Shown: piece after piece, positions 46,731 to 56,641 of the stretch
Numbering within the stretch: the stretch's first letter is position 1
Layout of the letters: each line of letters begins with the position of its first letter
Assembly: GCF_014281965.1 (NCBI RefSeq)
Contig: NZ_JACFTB010000002.1
Location: 62,001-126,000 of the forward strand
Length of the DNA: 64,000 nucleotides
DNA from: Rhodococcus sp. BP22
GTDB taxonomy: Bacteria; Actinomycetota; Actinomycetes; Mycobacteriales; Mycobacteriaceae
Direction of reading: 5' to 3'
Notes under the pieces: generated by a model
The model's database searches: none
The model's input: the letters and a program-made list of their open reading frames with translations, nothing else
What the model was told of the DNA's origin: nothing
Program-made: the position numbers and the translations under genes

Positions 46731-47375
46731 TCACACAGAGGGGACCGACCCGACGCGAACCTGGATGTGACCGCCGCGCACCGATGCTGACTGCACCGTG
46801 TCGAGTCGAGCAGGCATTGCAGTCCACGGGTGAGCGTCGATGTCGGATCCACCCAGTCGGCACGCCAGGCGCGCCAGCGGTGTCCATAATTCTGCGCGTC
46901 CGACGGGTTTCTGCATGTCTACGACGGCCACGACTCCCCCTGCCCGCGTTGCGGAGATCATCGCGTCGAGTGCAACCTCCCACCGAGCCATCAGCGACAA
47001 CGCGTAGGTACTGATAGCCGCGTCGAAGGGAACGTGATCTCCCAGGTACACCGAATCGAGTGCGGTGGCGTCCGCTGACATCAGGGTGACGTTCTCCCAC
47101 CCAGCGGAGGTAGCGCGGCGTCTGGCCTGCTCGAGCATCTGCGGGCTCGAATCGACACCGGTGATCGAACCTGTAGGCCCGATCCGGCGCTGCAGCAAAG
47201 CAAAATTGAGGCCGGTCCCGCAGGCGACGTCGAGGACATGACTGCCCGCTGGAAGAGCCATCAGATCGATCGCTGCCGTACGACCAGCGCGATAGATCGG
47301 CCACTCGAAAGAAATCACGTCGTACATGCGCGCCGAAATCGTGTAGGGCATCGGCTTCTTCATCGGTCGGTCCAT
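46731..47375 (-). CDS. class I SAM-dependent methyltransferase
   Basis: 214 aa from ATG 47375 (47363 also possible). SAM motif I is VLDVACGTGLNFALLQRRIG, motif post-I GSITGVDSSPQMLEQAR. The N-terminus (ARMYDVISFEWPIYRAGR) resembles UbiE and phosphatidylethanolamine N-methyltransferases (PmtA group), so a lipid or quinone-like acceptor is possible. It is divergent from the ECF sigma gene and shares its promoter region, including GGAAC-N18-TGTT on this strand. I take it as a member of the sigma regulon. Confidence 0.78.
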   Translation of the reverse strand: MDRPMKKPMPYTISARMYDVISFEWPIYRAGRTAAIDLMALPAGSHVLDVACGTGLNFALLQRRIGPTGSITGVDSSPQMLEQARRRATSAGWENVTLMSADATALDSVYLGDHVPFDAAISTYALSLMARWEVALDAMISATRAGGVVAVVDMQKPVGRAELWTPLARLACRLGGSDIDAHPWTAMPARLDTVQSASVRGGHIQVRVGSVPSV

Positions 47376-47411
47376 TTCATCGAGGCCTGCAGGGCACACT
47401 CTGTCGCTATG

Positions 47412-47440
47412 GGAACACCGCAGGACACTCGAAGGGTTCC
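47412..47440. promoter_or_regulatory. bidirectional ECF-type promoter
   Basis: Plus strand: GGAAC (47412-47416), 18 nt, GGTT (47435-47438), 8 nt, then GTG of the sigma gene. Minus strand: GGAAC (47440-47436), 18 nt, TGTT (47417-47414), toward the methyltransferase gene. GGAAC and GTT are the -35 and -10 cores of SigE/SigH-like ECF promoters. The plus-strand layout predicts a leaderless mRNA and autoregulation. Confidence 0.65.
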
Positions 47441-47446
47441 ATAGCT

Positions 47447-48013
47447 GTGCCCGAAATCGAATCCGACGCCGTCAACGACGCTCAGGCACGTAATTTTAGC
47501 CTCTACGTCGAACCGGAGATCGAGGTGCTCTTGCGCGTTGCCGCCACCTTGACTGGGCCCTCGCAAGCCGAGGACCTCGTGCAGGAGACGCTCATACGTG
47601 CGTGGCGCAGCGTCGACAGCTTCGACGGGCGCCACCCTCGGGCCTGGTTGCTGACCATTCTGCGCAACACCAACATGAACATGCACCGACGGCAGCGGCC
47701 GGACACATTCGCCGAGCTCGGCGACTACCTGTCCACCCGGCCCGCGTTCGGCGTCGAGGAACTCGGAACCGAGGAGAGAGTCATGACATCCATCTTGTCC
47801 GACGATCTCGAGCGGGCAGTCGGGTCGCTGGACCCGAAATTCCGGACGGTTCTGTTGCTGATCGACGTCGATCAACTCACTTACGCCGAGGCCGCGAACG
47901 TTCTGGACGTCCCGGTCGGAACGGTGATGTCCCGATTGAGCCGGGCCCGTGATCGGGTTCGACGCCGGCTGCGTCCCACATTCGCCTCTGCCACCGGAAA
48001 GGGAAAGCCATGA
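47447..48013 (+). CDS. ECF (RpoE-like) RNA polymerase sigma factor
   Basis: 188 aa. Region 2: GPSQAEDLVQETLIRAWRSV and HPRAWLLTILRNTNMN. Region 4: LDPKFRTVLLLIDVDQLTYA, then VLDVPVGTVMSRLSRARDRV. GTG 47447 stands 8 nt after the GGTT of its own promoter, with no ribosome binding site, so it may be leaderless. The next gene encodes an anti-sigma factor and overlaps it by 4 bp. Confidence 0.93.
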   Translation: MPEIESDAVNDAQARNFSLYVEPEIEVLLRVAATLTGPSQAEDLVQETLIRAWRSVDSFDGRHPRAWLLTILRNTNMNMHRRQRPDTFAELGDYLSTRPAFGVEELGTEERVMTSILSDDLERAVGSLDPKFRTVLLLIDVDQLTYAEAANVLDVPVGTVMSRLSRARDRVRRRLRPTFASATGKGKP

Positions 48014-48288
48014 TGAAGACCGCGCGGATGATGCTCACCTGCCATTGGTCGGCTCGACGATTGCAGCGTTATCTCGACGCCGACCCGTCGGGCCGGCTCG
48101 ATCCCGCCGAGGTGCGCAGAATCGAGGCACACCTTGCTGTGTGCGCCAGATGCCGGGCCGCGGAGGGCGAGTTCCGTCAGATCGATACGGCGTTGTCCAG
48201 GTGGACGGTACGGACGGTCCCCGATGAGAAGAGCGTCGAGCATGCTCGAAAATTCGTGGATCGACTTACCCGAGGTGACATGACATGA
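48010..48288 (+). CDS. zinc-binding anti-sigma factor (RsrA-like, zf-HC2)
   Basis: 92 aa, no membrane helix, so cytoplasmic. The ZAS motif H41-x3-C45-x2-C48 (HLAVCARC) plus Cys11 gives the same set (Cys, His, Cys, Cys) that holds zinc and senses thiol oxidation in Streptomyces RsrA. ATGA overlaps on both sides link it to the sigma factor and to the flavoprotein. It probably releases the sigma factor under thiol oxidation (inference). Confidence 0.85.
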   Translation: MMKTARMMLTCHWSARRLQRYLDADPSGRLDPAEVRRIEAHLAVCARCRAAEGEFRQIDTALSRWTVRTVPDEKSVEHARKFVDRLTRGDMT

Positions 48289-49733
48289 GTTCGATGCCGA
48301 CCGAAGCCGACGTCGTCGTAGTGGGCGGCGGAACAGCAGGCATCGTCGCAGCCAAGACTGCTGCTGGCTTCGGCGTGCGCGTCGTACTGATCGAGCGGGA
48401 GCGGCCCGGCGGTGATTGCCTGTGGACCGGGTGCGTGCCGTCCAAGGCGTTACTCGCGGCGGCGTCGACAGCTGCCACGATCCGGGACGCGCGCAGCTTC
48501 GGGATCGACGCCGGCGAGCCGCGCGTGGACTTTCCCCGTGTCATGGCGCACGTTTCCCGCGCCATCGCTGAGATCGCCCCGATCGATTCTCCGGAAGCGC
48601 TCACCGAAGCGGGGGTCACCGTCGTCGCCGGTGATGCCGTGTTCACCGGACCCGGCACCGTGGCCGTCGGATCGGGGTCCTTGCGTTTCGGTCAAGCCAT
48701 CATCACCACCGGTGCCAGTCCATCGATACCGCCGATCTCAGGATTGCACTCGACGGCCTACCTCACCAGCGAGACACTGTGGTCCCTGACATCTCTGCCG
48801 GAACGACTACTCATCATCGGGGCCGGCACCGTCGGCTGCGAAATGGCTCAGGCCTTTGCCCGTCTCGGCTCGGCTGTCACCCTCGTCGGTCGGGCCGAGA
48901 CCATTCTTCCGAGGGAGGACGCCTCGGCATCGGCAGTACTGTCCGCAGCGCTCACCGATGAGGGAGTGCACATTCTGACCTCTACGACGGTCACCCGAAT
49001 CGACGACGGGAAGGCCATCACCGATTCCGGTCTCACGTGTACGTTCGACGAAGTCCTCGTCGCCACCGGACGTACTCCTCGGACCACGGGGTTGGGCCTG
49101 GACGCCGCCGGGGTGTCATTGAAAGAGCACGGTTACGTCGTGGTCGACGATCATCTCCGCACCACTAATCCCCGCATCTGGGCCGCCGGAGATCTGACCG
49201 GTCACCCACAGTTCACTCATGTGGCAGGGATGCACGGCAGCCTCGCGGCGAGCAACGCCGTACTCGGTGTGCTCCGAAAGATCGACAAGACCGGCACTCC
49301 GCGCGTCACCTTCACCGATCCCGAAATCGCCTCTGCTGGAATCGATGTGCGCACAGCGAAGCGTATCCCCGGGTTGCGATTGCAGACACTCGGGCACGAA
49401 GACGTCGACCGCGCGGTCACCGAGGGCAAAACCACCGGCTTCACGACGCTGGTGCTCGACGGCAAGCGCCGCATCGTCGGTGCCAGCGTGGTGGGGCCAC
49501 GGGCGGGCGAAACCATCGGCGAACTGATTCTCGCCGTCAGGCAGGGCCTGCGCACTCGCGATCTCGCCGGTGCCACCCACCCGTATCCGACGTACAACGA
49601 CGGGCCGTGGAACGCTGCGGTCGGCGACGTCCGTTCGCAGTTGAGCACTCCAGTTGCATCTCGCGCACTGAACACCCTCGCGAAGGCCCGAGGTAGGTGG
49701 ATCGTCAGGAGAGAGCGCGGTAGCCGGCAATGA
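48285..49733 (+). CDS. FAD-dependent disulfide reductase, mercuric-reductase-like
   Basis: 482 aa. FAD motif VVVVGGGTAGIVAAKTAAGF, redox-active pair in GGDCLWTGCVPSKALL (Cys45, Cys50), NAD(P)H motif LLIIGAGTVGCEMAQAFARL, ATGRTPRT and AAGDLTG, then the dimerisation domain. It has no N-terminal HMA domain and no C-terminal Cys pair, so it is not true MerA. The usual His-Glu couple is altered (HPYPTYNDG). Third gene of the sigma operon (ATGA overlap). Fusions of such flavoproteins with TVP38 proteins are known, and a TVP38 gene lies nearby. Confidence 0.88.
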   Translation: MSSMPTEADVVVVGGGTAGIVAAKTAAGFGVRVVLIERERPGGDCLWTGCVPSKALLAAASTAATIRDARSFGIDAGEPRVDFPRVMAHVSRAIAEIAPIDSPEALTEAGVTVVAGDAVFTGPGTVAVGSGSLRFGQAIITTGASPSIPPISGLHSTAYLTSETLWSLTSLPERLLIIGAGTVGCEMAQAFARLGSAVTLVGRAETILPREDASASAVLSAALTDEGVHILTSTTVTRIDDGKAITDSGLTCTFDEVLVATGRTPRTTGLGLDAAGVSLKEHGYVVVDDHLRTTNPRIWAAGDLTGHPQFTHVAGMHGSLAASNAVLGVLRKIDKTGTPRVTFTDPEIASAGIDVRTAKRIPGLRLQTLGHEDVDRAVTEGKTTGFTTLVLDGKRRIVGASVVGPRAGETIGELILAVRQGLRTRDLAGATHPYPTYNDGPWNAAVGDVRSQLSTPVASRALNTLAKARGRWIVRRERGSRQ

Positions 49734-50328
49734 TGCGTTGACCCGAACTGACCGCCACCACCGCCGCCCATACCGTTGCGATCTGCCACGACACTGCGGG
49801 AAACAACAACCAGAGACTGTGCACGGCAATCGTTTCCGCTCCTTCGGCCAACCCGCCCAGAAATGACAGCGAGCGGCCGTCGTCGAGTGTTCTGCCCGTT
49901 TTTTCAGCGATGGAGGAGAACGCGAGAAAGGCCGTGCCGTTGATGTAGTACGCCAGCAACACCAATAGAAACGGCCACCACGGGGCGTCGTAACCGGCCG
50001 ACGCACCGACCGCGACGCCCACGACCGTGGTCCCGTAGACGGTGAAATCCGCTGTGATATCGAAGAACCCGCCCGCACCGGAGGTTGGTCCGCCACCGCG
50101 GAGTCGTCTACGGGCCAGTGGTCCGTCGAGTCCATCGGCAAGGCGCGAGAGGATCCACAGTGCCAACGCGAGTAGCCAGAACTGCAGCCCAGCGGCCACT
50201 GCGCTGCCCAATCCCAGCAGCAGACCGACCGCGGTGATTCGGTCCGGAGTGACCTGGCTGATGTCGAGGATTCGTGCACACCGATCCAGCGGCCCCTCGA
50301 GCTTGCGACGCAGATAGCTATCGATCAT
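49705..50328 (-). CDS. CDP-alcohol phosphatidyltransferase family protein (YnjF-like)
   Basis: 207 aa, about six hydrophobic helices. The CDP-AP motif is DG-x-DG-x2-AR (65-73), then G86-x3-D90-x3-D94. The gap between Arg73 and Gly86 is 12 residues instead of the usual 8. The enzymes move a phosphatidyl or similar group from a CDP-alcohol to another alcohol. E. coli ynjF of the ynj region belongs to the same family. It overlaps the TVP38 gene by 4 bp and the convergent flavoprotein gene by 29 bp. Confidence 0.85.
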   Translation of the reverse strand: MIDSYLRRKLEGPLDRCARILDISQVTPDRITAVGLLLGLGSAVAAGLQFWLLALALWILSRLADGLDGPLARRRLRGGGPTSGAGGFFDITADFTVYGTTVVGVAVGASAGYDAPWWPFLLVLLAYYINGTAFLAFSSIAEKTGRTLDDGRSLSFLGGLAEGAETIAVHSLWLLFPAVSWQIATVWAAVVAVSSGQRIIAGYRALS

Positions 50329-51032
50329 GGGGCCGCGATGCCGTCGAGATGTGGGCCGTTGGGTTCCGGATCACTCTTCAGGGCGAGACGTTTGGCAGCC
50401 AACGACGACCCGACGCCGATCACGAGGACGGCCACCAGCGCAGCGGCGAACGGCCAGGACAGCGGAGAGGTTCCGTACGCGCCGAGGGCGGTAAAACCGA
50501 CAGTGGCCGGGATGATGCCGACCGCCGTGCCGAGCAGGTAATCACGCTGGCCCACGGCGCTGATACCCGCCGCGTAGTTGACGACCGAAAATGGGAACAC
50601 TGGGATCAAGCGGACGATGAACACCGACATCAAACCGCGTCGCCCGAGCATGGCGTCCAGCCTGCGGAGCTTGCCCCACTCCGAGCGTGCAACCGATCCA
50701 CGGCCGAGCGCACGCGCCGCCCAATAACCCACATAGGCGCCTCCCGTTGCAGCCACGACCACCACCGTTGCACCGACCGCCAACCCGAACAGCAATCCGG
50801 AAGCGATGGTGAGGGCGCTCGCTGGGAACGGCGTCGCCGACAGCACGACATACAGAATTACGAACGCAACGATCCCCCACGCACCTGCGTCCGCGACCAG
50901 GGTTCGGATCGACTCCGGGTCCGGAAGGTCCACAGTCGCGGCCACGATGACGACCACCGTGATCACGGCGGCAGCAGCTGCCAGCTTGATCGCGGTGGAG
51001 CGGCTACGTGCCGGTCGGGGGTCCTGATTCAC
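50325..51032 (-). CDS. TVP38/TMEM64 family membrane protein (YdjX/YdjZ-like)
   Basis: 235 aa from GTG 51032 (AGAGG upstream). Hydrophobic throughout, with the SNARE-associated/VTT core FILYVVLSATPFPASALTIA, SGLLFGLAVGATVVVVAATG and FIVRLIPVFPFSVVNYAAGI. Eukaryotic relatives are lipid scramblases. E. coli ydjX and ydjZ flank the ynj genes and are the same family. Co-transcribed with the phosphatidyltransferase. Confidence 0.88.
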   Translation of the reverse strand: MNQDPRPARSRSTAIKLAAAAAVITVVVIVAATVDLPDPESIRTLVADAGAWGIVAFVILYVVLSATPFPASALTIASGLLFGLAVGATVVVVAATGGAYVGYWAARALGRGSVARSEWGKLRRLDAMLGRRGLMSVFIVRLIPVFPFSVVNYAAGISAVGQRDYLLGTAVGIIPATVGFTALGAYGTSPLSWPFAAALVAVLVIGVGSSLAAKRLALKSDPEPNGPHLDGIAAP

Positions 51033-51081
51033 AATTGCTACCTCTCGTGCTCGACACACAAAACAGTTCTTCTACGACGGG

Positions 51082-51108
51082 AAGTCCTCGACTACCCCAG
51101 TGTGTTCC
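51082..51108 (-). promoter_or_regulatory. weak ECF-type promoter candidate for the TVP38 operon
   Basis: On the minus strand GGGAACAC is followed by TCGAGG and ACTTCC at the same distances as in the sigma promoter (GGAAC-N18-ACTT). The first eight bases are identical to those of the sigma promoter. The -10 core ACTT differs from GGTT, so this is weaker. On the plus strand a GGAAC at 51137-51141 may serve the ABC operon. Confidence 0.35.
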
Positions 51109-51186
51109 CCTATCACCGGATTCGACCGATTACCGTGGAACAGGCAGCGTCGACTCTGTCTGCATCCTCGGACCAGGAGGCCCACG

Positions 51187-52449
51187 TTGTTTTCTCGATC
51201 TCATACCCGTCGACCGAGAAAGTACGCGTTCGCGGCCCTGGTGGTTGCCGCGAGCGTGGGGTTGGTCCTGTCCTCGTGCGCAGCCCCGTCGTCCGACGCG
51301 CCGGTCGCCGAGGAACTGTCCTGGAGCGAGATCGAACAGCAAGCGCAGGGGAAAACAGTCTCACTGTGGATGTACGGCGGTGACGAACAGGGCAATACGT
51401 ACGTCGACAACGTCCTCACCCCCGCCGCCGCAGCCGCAGGGGTCACGCTGCGTCGTGTGCCCGTCGAATCCACCACCGACGCCGTCAACCGGATTCTCTC
51501 CGAGCGGCAAGCAGGTGTCACCGATGGAGAGGTCGACCTGGTGTGGGTCAACGGTGCAAATTTCGGGACCGGTCAGCAGGCAGGCGCGTGGCTCTGCAAT
51601 TGGACACAGAATCTACCGAACATGGAGTACACGGACCCCGAGGACCCGCTGCTGAGCAGCGATTTCGGTACGCCGGTGAACAACTGCGAAGCACCCTGGC
51701 ACAAGGCGCAGTTCACGCTCGTCTACAACTCGGCGGCAATAGCGGACCCGCCCCGCACTTTGGACGAAGTATTCGACTGGGCCGAGGCCAACCCCGGCCG
51801 CTTCACCTATCCTGCGCCCCCGGATTTCACCGGTTCGGTATTCGTCCGCGAGGCACTGGTGAACCAGTCCGGTGGCGTCGAGAAGGTGCCCGCCCAGTTC
51901 GATCAGGACACCTACGATTCTCTCGCGCCGGCCGTGTTCGATCGGCTGAACGCCCTTGCACCGTCGCTCTGGCGCGGGGGCACCACGTATCCGCAGTCAT
52001 CGAGCGAACTCGACGACCTGTACGCCGGCGGGCAGGTGGACATGACCATGACCTATGGGCCCGCGACGCTGCCACAACTTGTCGCCGACGGCACCTATCC
52101 CCCCGAGACGCGCGTCCTGGCTCTCGATGAGGGCACCGTCGGCAACGCGAGCTTCCTGGCGATCCCGTCGACGTCGGGGCAGTCCGCGGCAGCGCAGGTC
52201 GTCGCCAACATCGCACTGTCACCGGAGCAGCAGCTCGCCAAATCCGAACCAGATGTATGGGGCCAGTTCACAGTGCTGGACACTTCTCGCCTGACACCGG
52301 AAGTCAGGGCGCAGTTCGAGGCGCTCCCAGCCTCCCCTGTCCTCCCGCCATACGAGGAACTCTCGGCCAACGCTCATCCCGAACTGGCCGCGGAGTGGGT
52401 CACGCCGCTGGACGAGGGGTGGCGGCGATCCGTTCTCGCGGGGCAGTGA
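51187..52449 (+). CDS. ABC transporter substrate-binding lipoprotein, YnjB type
   Basis: 420 aa from TTG 51187, chosen because GGAGG lies 8 nt upstream. Lipobox LSSC at the end of the signal peptide (VVAASVGLVLSSCAAP). The mature part follows E. coli YnjB closely: SEIEQQAQGKTVSLW, VDLVWVNGANFGT, FTYPAPPDFTGSVFV and KSEPDVWGQFTVLD. YnjB is a predicted periplasmic binding protein whose ligand is not known to me. First gene of a four-gene importer operon with ATGA-type overlaps. Confidence 0.88.
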   Translation: MFSRSHTRRPRKYAFAALVVAASVGLVLSSCAAPSSDAPVAEELSWSEIEQQAQGKTVSLWMYGGDEQGNTYVDNVLTPAAAAAGVTLRRVPVESTTDAVNRILSERQAGVTDGEVDLVWVNGANFGTGQQAGAWLCNWTQNLPNMEYTDPEDPLLSSDFGTPVNNCEAPWHKAQFTLVYNSAAIADPPRTLDEVFDWAEANPGRFTYPAPPDFTGSVFVREALVNQSGGVEKVPAQFDQDTYDSLAPAVFDRLNALAPSLWRGGTTYPQSSSELDDLYAGGQVDMTMTYGPATLPQLVADGTYPPETRVLALDEGTVGNASFLAIPSTSGQSAAAQVVANIALSPEQQLAKSEPDVWGQFTVLDTSRLTPEVRAQFEALPASPVLPPYEELSANAHPELAAEWVTPLDEGWRRSVLAGQ

Positions 52450-53279
52450 GCCAGCGAAAGGTACGCAGCACCCTCTGGGTGCTTCCAGCGGTGATTCCGG
52501 TTTTACTGGTGGTCGGCGGTGGCCTCGGAGCTGCCCTGCTGCAGAGTCTCGGTCTGATGCCTCTGGTGGGACGGCCCGCACTCACCCTCGATGCCTATTC
52601 TGCCCTCGGTGGAGATCTCTGGAGTTCTCTCGCGCTCACTCTTGCCGTCGCGACGGTCTCGACTCTCCTGGCTGTCGTCATCGGTCTCGCAGCGGCACTG
52701 ACGGTGCTGTCCGGCCGTCGAACGGCGTTGGTCGCCGCGGCGCTGACGTTGGCCGTACCCCATCTGATCGGTGCGGCCGCCATGGGTTTGCTGCTCGCCG
52801 ACTCAGGATTACTCCCGCGCATCTTCGGGCTCACCGACGGCGGATGGCCGGAGCTTGTCGGTGGACGCTGGTGGATTGCCGTCGCACTCGAATACGCGTG
52901 GAAGGAATCGGCATTCGTCGCCATCGTCGTGGCCGGCACCCTGGCAACTCGGGTGGCAGGATTCGACGAGACAGCGGCCACTCTCGGTGCGGGACGGTGG
53001 GCACGCTTCCGCTTGGTCACGCTGCCGCTGCTGCGGCCGGCCCTGGCAGCGTCGGCTGCGATAACCTTCACCTACACCGTCGGGTCCTACGAAGTGGCCC
53101 GGATTCTCGGTCGGCCCTATCCGGAACCATTGTCCGTCATGGCAATTCGATTGTTCACCTCGATCGACCTCGCTGCCCGTCCCCAAGCTGCGGCCGCTGC
53201 GATAGTTGCCGCCGCACTGGCGATTGTCGTGGCCGCGGTCGCGCTCAACTATCTCCGCAGATCGGCGGTATGGAAATGA
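52446..53279 (+). CDS. ABC transporter permease, YnjC N-half type
   Basis: 277 aa, six hydrophobic helices. The permease EAA-like loop is in GFDETAATLGAGRWARFRLV. E. coli YnjC is one longer protein of two such halves; here the halves are separate genes. GTG 52446 overlaps the lipoprotein stop by 4 bp. Confidence 0.87.
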   Translation: MSQRKVRSTLWVLPAVIPVLLVVGGGLGAALLQSLGLMPLVGRPALTLDAYSALGGDLWSSLALTLAVATVSTLLAVVIGLAAALTVLSGRRTALVAAALTLAVPHLIGAAAMGLLLADSGLLPRIFGLTDGGWPELVGGRWWIAVALEYAWKESAFVAIVVAGTLATRVAGFDETAATLGAGRWARFRLVTLPLLRPALAASAAITFTYTVGSYEVARILGRPYPEPLSVMAIRLFTSIDLAARPQAAAAAIVAAALAIVVAAVALNYLRRSAVWK

Positions 53280-54046
53280 CGGCGACGCGGCCCGCGGGGC
53301 GGTTACTTCTGGTGGTGTGGTTCGTGCTGCCCCTCATCCCGATAGCTCTGTGGGCGGTGAGCAATCAGTGGTCGTTTCCCGATGTACTGCCGCAGGAATG
53401 GGGAGTGGACGGAGTTCGTAGCGCCGTCGCGGCCGGCGGAACAGAAGCCTTCATGAGATCTACGGGTCTCGCCCTGACTGTCGCCGCGATCGCAACGCCG
53501 TTGGGAGCATGTGCGGCCCGGGCCCTCGCGCGTGGCGATGTGCATTTCCCTGGCGTCGTCGCGGCAATACTGTTCGCTCCGCTGGCACTGCCACCCTTCG
53601 CGGTAGCGCTAGGTTTGAATGTAGTGATTCTGCGTGCACGAATTCCGAGCACGCTCGCGGTGATCGTACTGCTCTCCGTGGCCGCGATTCCGTACACCAC
53701 ATATCTGATGCGGGTGGCCTTCGGTGCATACGACTCACGGTACGAGGAGGAAGCGCGAATGCTGGGTGCTTCGAAGTCGATGATCCTGTGGCAGATCAGA
53801 ATTCCGTTGCTGGCACCGGCGCTGTCCGGATCCGCTTTGCTCGCTTTTCTCGTGGGATGGAGCGACTACGTGATCACATTGTTGGTCGGCGGTGGCAGGC
53901 TGGTGACGGTACCGATATTGGTAGCCTCGTTCGCTGCAGGGACCGGAAACGACGCCGTCGTAGCCGCATTGTCGATCGCAGCCATAGTGCCCCCTCTCGT
54001 ACTGATTACGCTGCTCTCGCGTCTCGGAAGAGGGACGGCCCGATGA
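53276..54046 (+). CDS. ABC transporter permease, YnjC C-half type
   Basis: 256 aa, six hydrophobic helices. EAA loop: YEEEARMLGASKSMILWQIR. Pairs with the previous gene as a heterodimeric channel. ATG 53276 overlaps the upstream stop (ATGA); a second ATG at 53270 is less likely. Confidence 0.87.
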   Translation: MTATRPAGRLLLVVWFVLPLIPIALWAVSNQWSFPDVLPQEWGVDGVRSAVAAGGTEAFMRSTGLALTVAAIATPLGACAARALARGDVHFPGVVAAILFAPLALPPFAVALGLNVVILRARIPSTLAVIVLLSVAAIPYTTYLMRVAFGAYDSRYEEEARMLGASKSMILWQIRIPLLAPALSGSALLAFLVGWSDYVITLLVGGGRLVTVPILVASFAAGTGNDAVVAALSIAAIVPPLVLITLLSRLGRGTAR

Positions 54047-55071
54047 GCGTCGAACTATCTGTTCACGGACTCACCAAAGTTCATTCAGGCCAGACGAGTT
54101 CAGCATTGACTTCGTTGAATCTGACTGTTCGACCAGGTACGTGCACGGTGATACTCGGCCCGTCCGGTTCTGGCAAGAGCACCGTACTTCGGTTGATTGC
54201 CGGCCTCGATGCACCGACGACGGGAACCATCCGCATCGATGGCGTCGACGTCACCGGAGTCCCAGCAGAGGAAAGAGGCGTCGGGATGGTATTCCAGCGC
54301 CCGATGCTCTTTCCACACATGTCCGTCGTCGACAACATCGGCTTCGCCTACCGCGCCGCAGGCCACAAGCGGAGCCATGCCCGCGAACAGGCACACAGGT
54401 ACCTTGAGTTGGTCCATCTCGGTGACATCGGCGATCGATCGGTATCCGACATCTCGGGTGGTCAAGCACAACGAGTGGCGTTGGCCAGATCCCTCGCCGG
54501 TTCACCGCGGGTGCTGCTACTCGACGAGCCTTTCAGTGCGCTCGATCCCCTACTGCGCACGGAGATGCACGACCTCGTTCGGGAGATTCGCACCGAACTC
54601 GACCAAACGCTCGTACTGGTCACTCACGATCAGCAGGAAGCCGCCGCACTGGCCGATTCGGTAGCCGTACTCATCGACGGCGAATTACAACACCATTCCG
54701 ATGTCGCATCCGCCTACACCCGACCCAGCACGCTGGCCGTCAACCGGCTCATGGGCGGGATCAACGAGATCGACGGGCACCTGGAAAGCGGAGTTCACCA
54801 TTCAGTGATCGGGGATTTCGAGGTCGATGTCGCCCCCGGTGACGGGTCTGCGGTGCTTTTACTGCGTCACGAAATGATCCGTGTGGTGGATACTTCCGAG
54901 GTTCGCGGTGTTGTGGCGGCACTGCGTCCAACCGGCTTCCGGAACATCGCCGACGTGAGAATCGGCGGGGGCAGCGTCAAGGTCGAGCTACCCGCCGGGG
55001 CGGAGACGCGAGTAGGCGAGGAGATTTCATTGGAGATTCCTCCCGAGGCGAGAGCCGTGGTTTTTCGCTGA
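54043..55071 (+). CDS. ABC transporter ATP-binding protein, YnjD type
   Basis: 342 aa. Walker A LGPSGSGKST, Q-loop VFQRPMLFPH, signature ISGGQAQRVALARSLAG, Walker B VLLLDEPFSALDP and His switch VTHDQQE. The last ~90 residues form a TOBE-like domain (IRVVDTSEVRGVVAALRPTG), longer than in E. coli YnjD. ATGA overlap with the permease gene. Powers uptake of the YnjB ligand. Confidence 0.92.
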   Translation: MSVELSVHGLTKVHSGQTSSALTSLNLTVRPGTCTVILGPSGSGKSTVLRLIAGLDAPTTGTIRIDGVDVTGVPAEERGVGMVFQRPMLFPHMSVVDNIGFAYRAAGHKRSHAREQAHRYLELVHLGDIGDRSVSDISGGQAQRVALARSLAGSPRVLLLDEPFSALDPLLRTEMHDLVREIRTELDQTLVLVTHDQQEAAALADSVAVLIDGELQHHSDVASAYTRPSTLAVNRLMGGINEIDGHLESGVHHSVIGDFEVDVAPGDGSAVLLLRHEMIRVVDTSEVRGVVAALRPTGFRNIADVRIGGGSVKVELPAGAETRVGEEISLEIPPEARAVVFR

Positions 55072-55074
55072 TCC

Positions 55075-56520
55075 TCAGCCACAGCATCCGGGCGAATGTG
55101 CCACCGTCACGGGAAGCAGTCGGCGTAGTTCCTGATTCTCACCCGGATCGAGCACCGAATGTTGAACACACGCCGGCACCAGTTCACCGGTCTCGGGATG
55201 TGCCATCGAATAGGTGCACGCTGCCAGCCGCTCCTGCGTTTCGAGAATCACGGGATCGGTGGCTGCCACCCCAGACTGCATCAACGTCCATGCAGGAGAC
55301 ACATTCTCGGCATCCATGAAGCGATGCACGACGAACGTCATCGGGCGTACTTCCTTGCGGAGCAAAGCCACAACCACCGTTCGGCCGCCGCATCGCCGCA
55401 GTACGCTCGCAGCCCACTTCACCGCCACGACAACACCGTGCGGATGACCCACCAGCACCCGGAGCAATTTTAGAACCAAGGCCAGCGAACCCGAGCCGCC
55501 GAAGTTCACACCCCCCAGATGGGTGAAGAATTCTTCGCGGGCACGCTCCTCGACCTTCGACGTCACCTCGAGAAACGGATGCCACCGACGCCCGACCATG
55601 AACCCCAAAGCTGTTCGGTTACAACGCGGATCACCGAACTGGATCGCCGAGTACGAAATAGGTTGCCCCATGCCGAGTTCGATCTGCTCCCAGACCGTGT
55701 CGATGTCGATCTCGCGGTAGTCACCGTGCCACCGTCGCTCGTCGCCGACGAACGCCGCAGGCTGAAAAGAGACCATCGAATAACCGCCCATGTCCACCAC
55801 TTCGCCCACGACAGCTGCAACCTCGTCGATGTTGTCGGGGGTGACGGTCATGTTGTGCGCGAGGTAAGACGCAATGCCGTGTTCGCTTTTCAACCGAGTG
55901 AACATCTCCGCGAATCGGCGACGATAGGGCGTGAGCTCGGCTTCCGTTCGTGGGCGAGGGATTCCGCTTCGTCCACGCATCAGCTTGTCGAAATGTGCAG
56001 CGAAGGAAACTCGCCCGAACCTGGCGTTACCGTCGGGATCCAAGACGACCGCCCGCAGATACTCGTAGTCGAAGTCACCGTGTGTGAACGACATCGGCTC
56101 GCGCCCGTAGTCCCGCATGATCTGCAACGCTGCAGCATGGTCATCGGGAGCCAGCAAGCTGACCTCCCCGCCGATCAACTGTGCGTGTGCCCGCGGGCCT
56201 CGGCGCGATGCCAGGAATTTCAGTTGCGCCCCTATCTCACGGAGGGTGTGCTCGCCGTCGACGCGGACTTTGTTCGCATCGGCGCTGTGGTAGCACGGGC
56301 TACATGTGAGATTGCACTTCGGAAACACTCCGTGAGTGCCCTCGCATCCGACGGCATGCCGACCGAGCGTCTGTGCCGGTGTTCGTGCCGTCTCGGGAAG
56401 GGCCGCCCATCTCGCGTCCAATGCAGAACGGGTTCTCGGGTCGACCGGCCGGTAGCGAAGCTCGATCCGACGCGCGTAGGCCCGCGCTTTTTTCCACATA
56501 GTCGGCCTCGATGTCTTCAC
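55075..56520 (-). CDS. radical SAM protein with C-terminal Cys-Cys-Gly
   Basis: 481 aa. The 4Fe-4S motif C69-x3-C73-x2-C76 reads PKCNLTCSPCYH, preceded by Cys59. The middle (QLIGGEVSLLAPDDHAAAL) fits the SAM barrel, with GG(E) at the SAM amine. The end of the protein is PGCCG, plus Cys in TYSMAHPETGELVPACVQ, which hints at an extra metal or substrate site. I cannot place it in a named subfamily. It is predicted leaderless: GTG 56520 is 8 nt after GGTT of an ECF promoter. ATG 56499 is an alternative start. It probably modifies a membrane or small-molecule substrate. Confidence 0.82.
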   Translation of the reverse strand: MKTSRPTMWKKARAYARRIELRYRPVDPRTRSALDARWAALPETARTPAQTLGRHAVGCEGTHGVFPKCNLTCSPCYHSADANKVRVDGEHTLREIGAQLKFLASRRGPRAHAQLIGGEVSLLAPDDHAAALQIMRDYGREPMSFTHGDFDYEYLRAVVLDPDGNARFGRVSFAAHFDKLMRGRSGIPRPRTEAELTPYRRRFAEMFTRLKSEHGIASYLAHNMTVTPDNIDEVAAVVGEVVDMGGYSMVSFQPAAFVGDERRWHGDYREIDIDTVWEQIELGMGQPISYSAIQFGDPRCNRTALGFMVGRRWHPFLEVTSKVEERAREEFFTHLGGVNFGGSGSLALVLKLLRVLVGHPHGVVVAVKWAASVLRRCGGRTVVVALLRKEVRPMTFVVHRFMDAENVSPAWTLMQSGVAATDPVILETQERLAACTYSMAHPETGELVPACVQHSVLDPGENQELRRLLPVTVAHSPGCCG

Positions 56521-56528
56521 GGTCAGGT

Positions 56529-56555
56529 AACCCGCTGCGCACTGTTCATCGTTCC
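56529..56555 (-). promoter_or_regulatory. ECF-type promoter of the radical SAM gene
   Basis: On the minus strand: GGAAC (56555-56551), 18 nt, GGTT (56532-56529), 8 nt, GTG start (56520). Spacing and both cores are identical to those before the sigma gene, including the distance to the start codon. Confidence 0.65.
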
Positions 56556-56641
56556 AGTGTGCGCGTACCCGAAACGGTCACGTCGACATCCAGGGGGCAG
56601 TCAGGGTTGCCGAGCGAAAAGACCTTAGGCATGGTGGAGGT

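Follow-up and report, generated by a model that had tools for sequence, protein, structure and literature searches.

An eleven-gene Rhodococcus locus with a shared predicted promoter that may handle an unusual membrane-lipid building block

The window analysed here, a stretch of 64,000 nucleotides from Rhodococcus sp. BP22 (contig NZ_JACFTB010000002.1, positions 62,001 to 126,000), contains at positions 46731-56520 eleven genes that form a genuine set, probably under joint control, and that may import or process an unusual membrane-lipid building block. That their neighbourhood is conserved, that one promoter motif recurs in the divergent gaps between them and that the proteins carry catalytic motifs can be read directly from the sequence. 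In order, the genes encode a methyltransferase (minus strand); an extracytoplasmic function (ECF) sigma factor, an anti-sigma factor and a flavoprotein (plus); a CDP-alcohol phosphatidyltransferase (CDP-AP) and a TVP38 membrane protein (minus); YnjB, two permeases and an ATPase, together a YnjBCD importer (plus); and a radical S-adenosylmethionine (SAM) enzyme (minus). This order on two strands implies at least five transcription units, and gene ends overlap both in the sigma/anti-sigma/flavoprotein run and in the CDP-AP/TVP38 pair. An earlier note on this DNA had named the same families, all of which are present where it had placed them, and had counted ten genes; the number is corrected to eleven, the permease being encoded by two.

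Conserved neighbours and a shared promoter motif

The radical SAM protein was used as bait against one genome each of 84,980 species. This gave 271 relatives, of which the best 79 loci, all from Actinomycetota by title, were kept; they are the bait's nearest relatives rather than a random sample, and 43 of them have both 10-kb flanks (L-numbers below are labels of fetched loci or regions). The nearest named relatives belong to Rhodococcus sp. 1163 (98%), H36-A4 (94%) and 1168 (90%), and in six of the seven named Rhodococcus loci (L064-L068, L070) the radical SAM gene lies beside YnjBCD, CDP-AP and TVP38, the seventh (L069) having none of these within 10 kb. By tblastn at E 1e-8, the 79 loci contain the flavoprotein in 66 cases, CDP-AP in 50, ynjB in 47, TVP38 in 40, the methyltransferase in 27 and the sigma factor in 21, the figures for the 43 full-flank loci being 39, 32, 29, 26, 16 and 14, respectively; at E 1e-5 the counts rise to 36 for the methyltransferase and 23 for the sigma factor. 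Nine of the 79 loci are without ynjB, CDP-AP, TVP38 and flavoprotein, seven of them lacking a full flank; the other two (L069 and L084) come from genomes that carry YnjB elsewhere. Radical SAM relatives in two genomes of other actinobacterial classes (55% and 51% identical) are accompanied by ynjB, ynjD and the flavoprotein, one of the two adding an ECF sigma factor, CDP-AP and permeases. Some genomes have two radical SAM loci, several with differing partner sets (Arthrobacter-type, one actinomycete metagenome-assembled genome and Streptomyces dysideae; L100, L127 with L131, L134 with L138, L122 with L123, and L098 with L139).

With YnjB as the starting point the picture is looser. YnjB exceeds its cut-off in 26 of the 296 genomes of a phylum sample, as against its presence in 29 of the 43 full-flank radical SAM loci, an association beyond chance. 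The sample includes eight further genomes from the family of the window's organism, and none of them is among the 26; the distribution is patchy and perhaps horizontal in origin. The 28 YnjB regions of these 26 genomes include CDP-AP in nine, the flavoprotein in 12 and TVP38 (above 50 bits) in nine, and at least one of the three in 15, or in 18 when weak TVP38 matches are admitted. Hence the earlier expectation that the families stay together stands in part: the genes belong together and a core recurs, but only 15 of the 28 regions carry a core partner, so that the core is modular and not fixed, and the varied contents of the actinobacterial regions rule out a single neighbourhood for YnjB. 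Within one actinobacterial family, closely related YnjB proteins have as partners either CDP-AP, TVP38 and flavoprotein or an APH/choline-kinase-like protein together with a nucleoside hydrolase. Genes for such a kinase and an inosine-uridine-type nucleoside hydrolase lie near ynjBCD in L036, L037, L041 and L043-L047 (in L044 the hydrolase only), which suggests a riboside cargo; L038, L048 and L061 have genes for YdjM-type membrane hydrolases next to ynjBCD, CDP-AP and TVP38.

The core consists of YnjBCD, CDP-AP, TVP38 and a MerA-like flavoprotein. It is found again in Actinomycetota, Pseudomonadota and Bacillota, in changed order and often with members missing, and the E. coli stretch ydjXYZ-ynjABCDEF is one version of it. 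YnjB is matched in 202 plasmid records, Salmonella plasmids among them, and CDP-AP lies nearby in seven of nine regions chosen from this collection by hand. In Metabacillus the order is TVP38, flavoprotein, ynjB, permeases, ynjD and CDP-AP. The Klebsiella pneumoniae plasmid NZ_CP050847.1 (L143) has a TVP38/flavoprotein fusion followed by ynjBCD and CDP-AP, with an ECF sigma factor, an AhpD-like gene and a TIGR03169-like oxidoreductase (287.0 bits, cut-off 310); the fusion of which the earlier note had spoken thus occurs in a matching context. Beside this module are DUF2282, DUF692 and DoxX genes, and a Tn3 transposase and a recombinase lie about 7 kb away. AhpD-like and HAD-type genes recur near the module both here and in L137, L141 and L073 of Actinomycetota. 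Klebsiella and E. coli YnjB regions of chromosomal type also hold CDP-AP. A Pseudoalteromonas region combines CDP-AP with a TonB receptor, DUF547 and a 721-aa protein of which the flavoprotein forms the second two thirds; an Acetoanaerobium region has CDP-AP and two TVP38 genes; and an Aliiroseovarius region has CDP-AP and ynjBCD only, with no TVP38 or flavoprotein. On the YnjB tree, CDP-AP-linked members fall on both sides of a midpoint root that serves for drawing only, and the linkage is weakly clustered (10 changes against a shuffled mean of 13.0, with 14 of 500 shuffles as low); given this spread, the link is either old or has arisen repeatedly.

The second line of evidence is the promoter motif. 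Predicted ECF promoters occupy both strands of the methyltransferase/sigma gap at 47411..47441, GGGAACACCGCAGGACACTCGAAGGGTT on the plus strand, 8 nt before the GTG of the sigma gene, and TGGAACCCTTCGAGTGTCCTGCGGTGTT on the minus strand, directed towards the methyltransferase. A third, GGGAAGTCCTCGACTACCCCAGTGTGTT, lies at 51079..51106 on the plus strand of the TVP38/YnjB gap, and a fourth, TGGAACGATGAACAGTGCGCAGCGGGTT, at 56529..56556 on the minus strand, 8 nt before the GTG of the radical SAM gene. The end of the -10 element 8 nt ahead of GTG in both the sigma and the radical SAM genes fits leaderless transcripts. The pattern KGGAA-N18-GKGTT has four matches in the window against 0.26 expected, and none of 100 shuffles reaches four, a count that is partly circular because the pattern was derived from these very sites; all four fall in the three divergent gaps of the locus, two between methyltransferase and sigma on opposite strands, one between TVP38 and YnjB, and one before the radical SAM gene. 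Independent support comes from the relatives. The motif also precedes sigma in L064-L068, L071, L080 and L093; it is kept before ynjB in L064-L067, L070, L071, L093 and L109, the elements of L068 being 16 bp apart instead of 18; and it precedes the radical SAM gene in L064-L066, L070 and L080, with a spacing of 19 bp in L067. Across 11 related loci (185 kb) there are 19 matches, 13 of them at a module gap as judged by eye.

These results uphold the earlier proposal of a locus under an ECF sigma factor in so far as one ECF-type motif links the divergent units. Separate regulation, which that note had named as a point that would speak against it, is argued against by the common motif in all three divergent gaps. 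The strand towards TVP38 has a weaker -10 element (GACTT). A wider regulon was sought in the organism's own genome and is not supported: GGGAA-N18-GKGTT has 11 matches there against five for a reversed control, and two of the 11 lie in this locus. Of the remaining nine, four (L201, L207, L208 and L209) open into open reading frames of 175-432 aa and resemble gene interiors by eye, and the other five have at most a doubtful frame within 200 nt; accordingly, no regulon beyond the locus is claimed.

Exchange of partners around the radical SAM family

Around the radical SAM family, YnjBCD and arsenosugar genes nearly exclude each other, a relationship that had previously been missed. With an arsenosugar set defined as at least two of MTAP, TIGR04282, TIGR04283 and ArsM-like genes, the 43 full-flank loci divide into 28 with ynjB only, eight with the arsenosugar set only, one with both (L118) and six with neither (Fisher p = 1.6e-4). 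Whole genomes were searched for 24 organisms, hand-picked from both types and covering 25 of the 79 loci: YnjB is found in 12 and TIGR04283 in 12, with both in one (L118) and neither in one (L130). Local type guided the choice of these genomes; what the search adds is that the set lacking at the locus is also absent from the rest of the genome as available. In the L118 genome the YnjB match covers just positions 8-181 of 397. Outside Streptomyces, TIGR04283 without YnjB is found in three genomes (L081, L091 and L122), two of which are metagenome-assembled and perhaps incomplete. On the simplest reading, YnjBCD would bring from outside what the arsenosugar-type enzymes produce inside.

The arsenosugar-type partners were identified as follows. 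In 15 of the 79 loci, mostly from Streptomyces, an MTAP-like gene directly follows the radical SAM gene, and TIGR04282-like, TIGR04283-like and ArsM-like genes are present in 12, 14 and 10 loci, respectively, three of the TIGR04283-like genes (L083, L112 and L113) being only 31-39% identical. One Streptomyces-type example of each was scored; TIGR04282 (181.6 bits, cut-off 134) and TIGR04283 (236.6, cut-off 182) pass, and the ArsM-like (191.7, cut-off 263) and MTAP-like (149.9, cut-off 274.85) examples fall below. The flavoprotein, TVP38 and, in some cases, CDP-AP are common to loci of both types.

Canonical ArsS (TIGR04167) exceeds its cut-off in four of the 296 genomes of the phylum sample and is found in none of the 24 genomes chosen for carrying the radical SAM gene of this family (E 1e-30). 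All four ArsS loci are ordered TIGR04283-like, ArsS, MTAP-like, one of them also having a TVP38 match (30%), and their MTAP-like proteins are 44-47% identical to the one beside the radical SAM gene. On a plasmid of Burkholderia glumae, some 2 kb separate ArsS from a distant radical SAM homologue (28% over 386 columns). The arsenosugar-type cluster of this plasmid (L199, NZ_CP100267.1) includes an ECF sigma/zf-HC2 pair, TIGR04282, TIGR04283, MTAP, CcdA, thioredoxin, DUF547, DUF427 and a second radical SAM gene. By tblastn, matches occur in 46 plasmid records, 44 from Burkholderia and one each from Cupriavidus and Roseomonas; the Cupriavidus match (27%) is about 4.6 kb from ArsS in a record that is hardly annotated. 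As the Burkholderia records are near-copies, the ArsS-linked homologue counts as two lineages. Its coexistence with ArsS in Burkholderia means that the radical SAM family need not replace ArsS, and the idea that the window's protein is, by its sequence, a diverged ArsS was rejected, a profile comparison having aligned 52 columns only, around the SAM motif, with a probability of 29.9%.

A plain arsenosugar pathway in the window was rejected. The best matches in its genome are 71.7 bits for ArsS (TIGR04167, cut-off 300), 55.5 for ArsM (NF008823, cut-off 263) and 54.2 for the TIGR04283 glycosyltransferase (cut-off 182), and the only hit for the MTAP-like protein of Streptomyces, 37% identical, is located on a different contig. 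With all three below cut-off, arsenic is only a lead. Radical SAM enzymes have been named for the formation of C-As bonds in oxo-arsenosugar and arsinothricin biosynthesis (PMC12159101), and the organoarsenic section of that article names no actinobacterial arsenosugar pathway.

The encoded proteins

The radical SAM protein (55075..56520, minus strand) belongs to a family without a model of its own, scoring 20.7 bits against PF04055 (cut-off 29.5, E 5.1e-4) and reaching no NCBIfam cut-off. Its CxxxCxxC motif occupies residues 69-76, and together with Cys 59, 300, 435 and 451 makes up seven cysteines that are invariant in all 38 aligned relatives. The models matched by most members (E 1e-3) are TrsS (25 of 38) and the tetraether lipid synthase Tes (12 of 38).

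The importer begins with a YnjB-family substrate-binding lipoprotein (51100..52449, plus strand; NF008633, 442.8 bits, cut-off 203), whose true start is probably the TTG at 51187, because the predicted -10 element overlaps the listed GTG. Directly downstream follow permease 1 (52437..53279, start approximate; PF00528, 40.1 bits) and permease 2 (53276..54046; PF00528, 53.4 bits), equivalent to the N- and C-terminal halves of YnjC, and the ABC ATPase YnjD (54043..55071; PF00005, 125.5 bits), all on the plus strand. Solved structures gave no informative match for YnjB or for the radical SAM family.

On the minus strand, the CDP-AP (49705..50328; PF01066, 29.2 bits, cut-off 22) has the lowest PF01066 score of five such proteins in the genome. 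The characteristic DxxDGxxxR...GxxxDxxxD motif is present as DGLDGPLAR...GGFFDITAD, and the strict pattern is matched in 39 of 56 collected relatives. Its partner is a TVP38/TMEM64 membrane protein of the VTT/DedA type (50325..51059, minus; PF09335, 81.8 bits, cut-off 33.9); proteins of the DedA family are able to scramble or transport lipids.

The regulatory pair on the plus strand consists of the ECF sigma factor (47447..48013; Sigma70_r2 60.8 bits, Sigma70_r4_2 52.1 bits) and a zf-HC2, ZAS-type anti-sigma factor (48010..48288; PF13490, 30.9 bits), in which residues C11, H41, C45 and C48 are present and whose HxxxCxxC motif is kept in all 11 collected relatives. These Cys and His residues can be compared with those of RsrA, and a redox release of the sigma factor like that by RsrA would be conceivable. 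The flavoprotein that follows (48285..49733, plus), a MerA/lipoamide-dehydrogenase-like FAD disulfide oxidoreductase with CLWTGC, scores 442.7 bits against its best subfamily, NF004991 (cut-off 620); its redox motif CxxxxC[VIL]P[ST]K is found in 66 of 68 collected relatives. An identification as MerA itself was rejected, the score against TIGR02053 being 379.8 bits (cut-off 454.45). The methyltransferase (46731..47399, minus) is a UbiE-like class I SAM-dependent enzyme (Pfam Methyltransf_31, 65.9 bits) that reaches no cut-off among the 25 best NCBIfam models, the best score being 60.2 bits (cut-off 158.35).

Possible functions and comparison with known systems

We tentatively favour the reading that the locus is a single ECF-controlled system handling an unusual membrane-lipid head group, which we hold to be possible rather than probable. 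The lipid idea follows from CDP-AP, TVP38 and the Tes-related radical SAM enzyme, and that of a riboside from the MTAP-like and nucleoside hydrolase partners, both of which would handle ribosides. In such a system, inactivation of the anti-sigma factor would allow the sigma factor to transcribe all units. YnjBCD would import a small, polar molecule, presumably a riboside or a sugar alcohol, which the YnjF-type CDP-AP would join to the phosphatidyl unit of CDP-diacylglycerol, and TVP38 would shift the resulting lipid within the membrane or to its other side. Reducing power for a redox-active group, a thiol or a metalloid, could come from the disulfide flavoprotein, and the radical SAM enzyme and the methyltransferase may tailor the head group or the lipid. 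In the Streptomyces-type variant, enzymes of the arsenosugar pathway would replace the importer and make the compound in the cell. The riboside- or sugar-type head group would therefore be either made or imported, then joined to lipid and translocated. A broader form of this proposal appears rather unlikely at present: a widespread and so far undescribed make-or-import pathway leading to phospholipids whose head group would be a 5-modified riboside or resemble an arsenosugar, with YnjBCD as importer, the YnjF-type CDP-AP as lipid-forming enzyme, TVP38 as translocator and the radical SAM family standing in for ArsS wherever cells synthesise the head group themselves.

Several observations weigh against the head-group reading. 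The exclusion of YnjBCD and arsenosugar genes is confounded by phylogeny, and the loci lack independence: Streptomyces supplies eight of the nine full-flank loci of the arsenosugar type, two of them (L098 and L139) from one genome. No core partner (TVP38 being counted above 50 bits) is present in 13 of the 28 actinobacterial YnjB regions, some of which reach contig edges, and both Deinococcus YnjB regions are without CDP-AP. Neither CDP-AP nor TVP38 nor YnjBCD is annotated in the arsenosugar cluster of Burkholderia. The nearest NCBIfam and PDB matches of the CDP-AP are mostly inositol-phosphate types with weak scores, the best among the solved structures being a myo-inositol-phosphate type. 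Finally, the promoter pattern was counted on the sites that defined it, six of the 19 matches in the 11 related loci are not at a module gap by eye, and three of those loci (L081, L092 and L122) have no match.

Of the alternatives, the one that survives best, less probable but of appreciable weight, is a stress-detoxification regulon without a dedicated lipid product, in which the flavoprotein would act as a MerA/RclA-like reductase of oxidants, metals or metalloids, YnjBCD would take up a compound for protection or repair, and mending the membrane would fall to the lipid genes. It accords with the ECF/ZAS pair and disulfide flavoprotein of the locus, with the repeated presence of AhpD/CMD-type and HAD-type genes at related loci as well as on the Klebsiella plasmid, with the DUF2282/DUF692/DoxX genes beside the module of that plasmid, and with msrA/msrB near the module on the Metabacillus plasmid. 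However, it leaves unexplained both why CDP-AP and a specific importer are such widely common partners and why YnjBCD is exchanged for biosynthetic genes.

An arsenosugar-lipid pathway proper, whose product would be an arsenic-containing ribosyl phospholipid and whose importer would take up an arsenosugar or its precursor, is judged unlikely. The ArsM-like, MTAP-like, TIGR04282 and TIGR04283 genes of the Streptomyces-type relatives speak for it, as do the lack of ArsS in all 24 genomes with the radical SAM gene, the homologues near ArsS in Burkholderia glumae and Cupriavidus, and the resemblance between ArsS-linked and radical SAM-linked MTAP-like proteins. Set against these are the sub-threshold ArsS, ArsM and TIGR04283 scores of the window genome, those of the Streptomyces ArsM-like and MTAP-like examples themselves, and an E. 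coli-type module that, as annotated, shows no arsenic gene.

An alternative of similarly low probability is that a dimeric regulator uses the repeated GGGAA...TTCC sites as operators; they would then not be ECF promoters, and the sigma factor would not control the whole locus. By eye, inverted repeats are indeed seen at two of the three gaps, those of methyltransferase/sigma and TVP38/ynjB, but the 18-bp GGAA-GKGTT spacing is constant in the window, the distance to GTG is 8 nt for both the sigma and radical SAM genes, and one site precedes the sigma gene itself. Least likely of all is a loose stress island in which an importer of some common nutrient or cofactor (thiamine-, polyamine- or phosphonate-like) merely lies near lipid and redox genes, since, although many importers have similar permeases and ATPases and YnjB often occurs without the other genes, the set recurs in several phyla with differing gene orders and has a common promoter motif.

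The open-licence titles and abstracts listed contained no description of the gene set of the locus and nothing joining TVP38 with a CDP-alcohol phosphatidyltransferase; within this literature no function was found in print for a conserved set that E. coli and many soil bacteria possess and that a Klebsiella plasmid also carries. The exchange of YnjBCD for arsenosugar genes around the radical SAM enzyme provides a concrete, testable idea of the type of molecule handled, and the common promoter suggests how the gene set could be switched on. If the head-group idea is true, it would tie TVP38/DedA-type proteins to a specific lipid and bear on the step from arsenosugar-type compounds to phospholipids.

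Among known systems, MerA and the PRK06370-type FAD oxidoreductases share with the window flavoprotein a family resemblance and the CxxxxC redox motif. TrsS and Tes are the nearest models for the radical SAM family, the distant Burkholderia homologue scoring 106.3 and 71.4 bits against them, whereas the window protein scores 24.7 bits against TrsS (NF045646, cut-off 490) over residues 64-122 only and has no Tes match at E 1e-3. Tes reportedly acts on lipid tails. Arsenosugar clusters resemble the locus in that relatives of the window radical SAM gene lie in such sets, and the Burkholderia cluster also has an ECF/zf-HC2 pair, DUF547, DUF427 and a TIGR03169 flavoprotein; they differ in their ArsS, ArsM and TIGR04283, none of which is above cut-off in the window genome.

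The closest parallel in a well-known organism is the E. coli ydjXYZ-ynjABCDEF stretch. The likeness to ydjX/ydjZ, ynjBCD and ynjF drawn in the earlier note is real, the gene set having been read in an E. coli plasmid record with chromosomal-type genes, where YnjB, permease, ATPase, two TVP38 proteins and CDP-AP lie in one stretch, CDP-AP on the opposite strand. The E. coli stretch differs in having no flavoprotein, radical SAM enzyme, methyltransferase or ECF pair, and in possessing YdjY, the AhpD-like YnjA and the sulfurtransferase YnjE, the eleven genes of the locus including no YnjA- or YnjE-type gene. Expression of ydjXYZ-ynjABCD and ynjE in E. coli is activated by FNR (PMC3688515). What the two share is the placement of CDP-AP and TVP38 adjacent to ynjBCD, and the make-or-import pathway, if true, would give a function to the E. 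coli genes as well.

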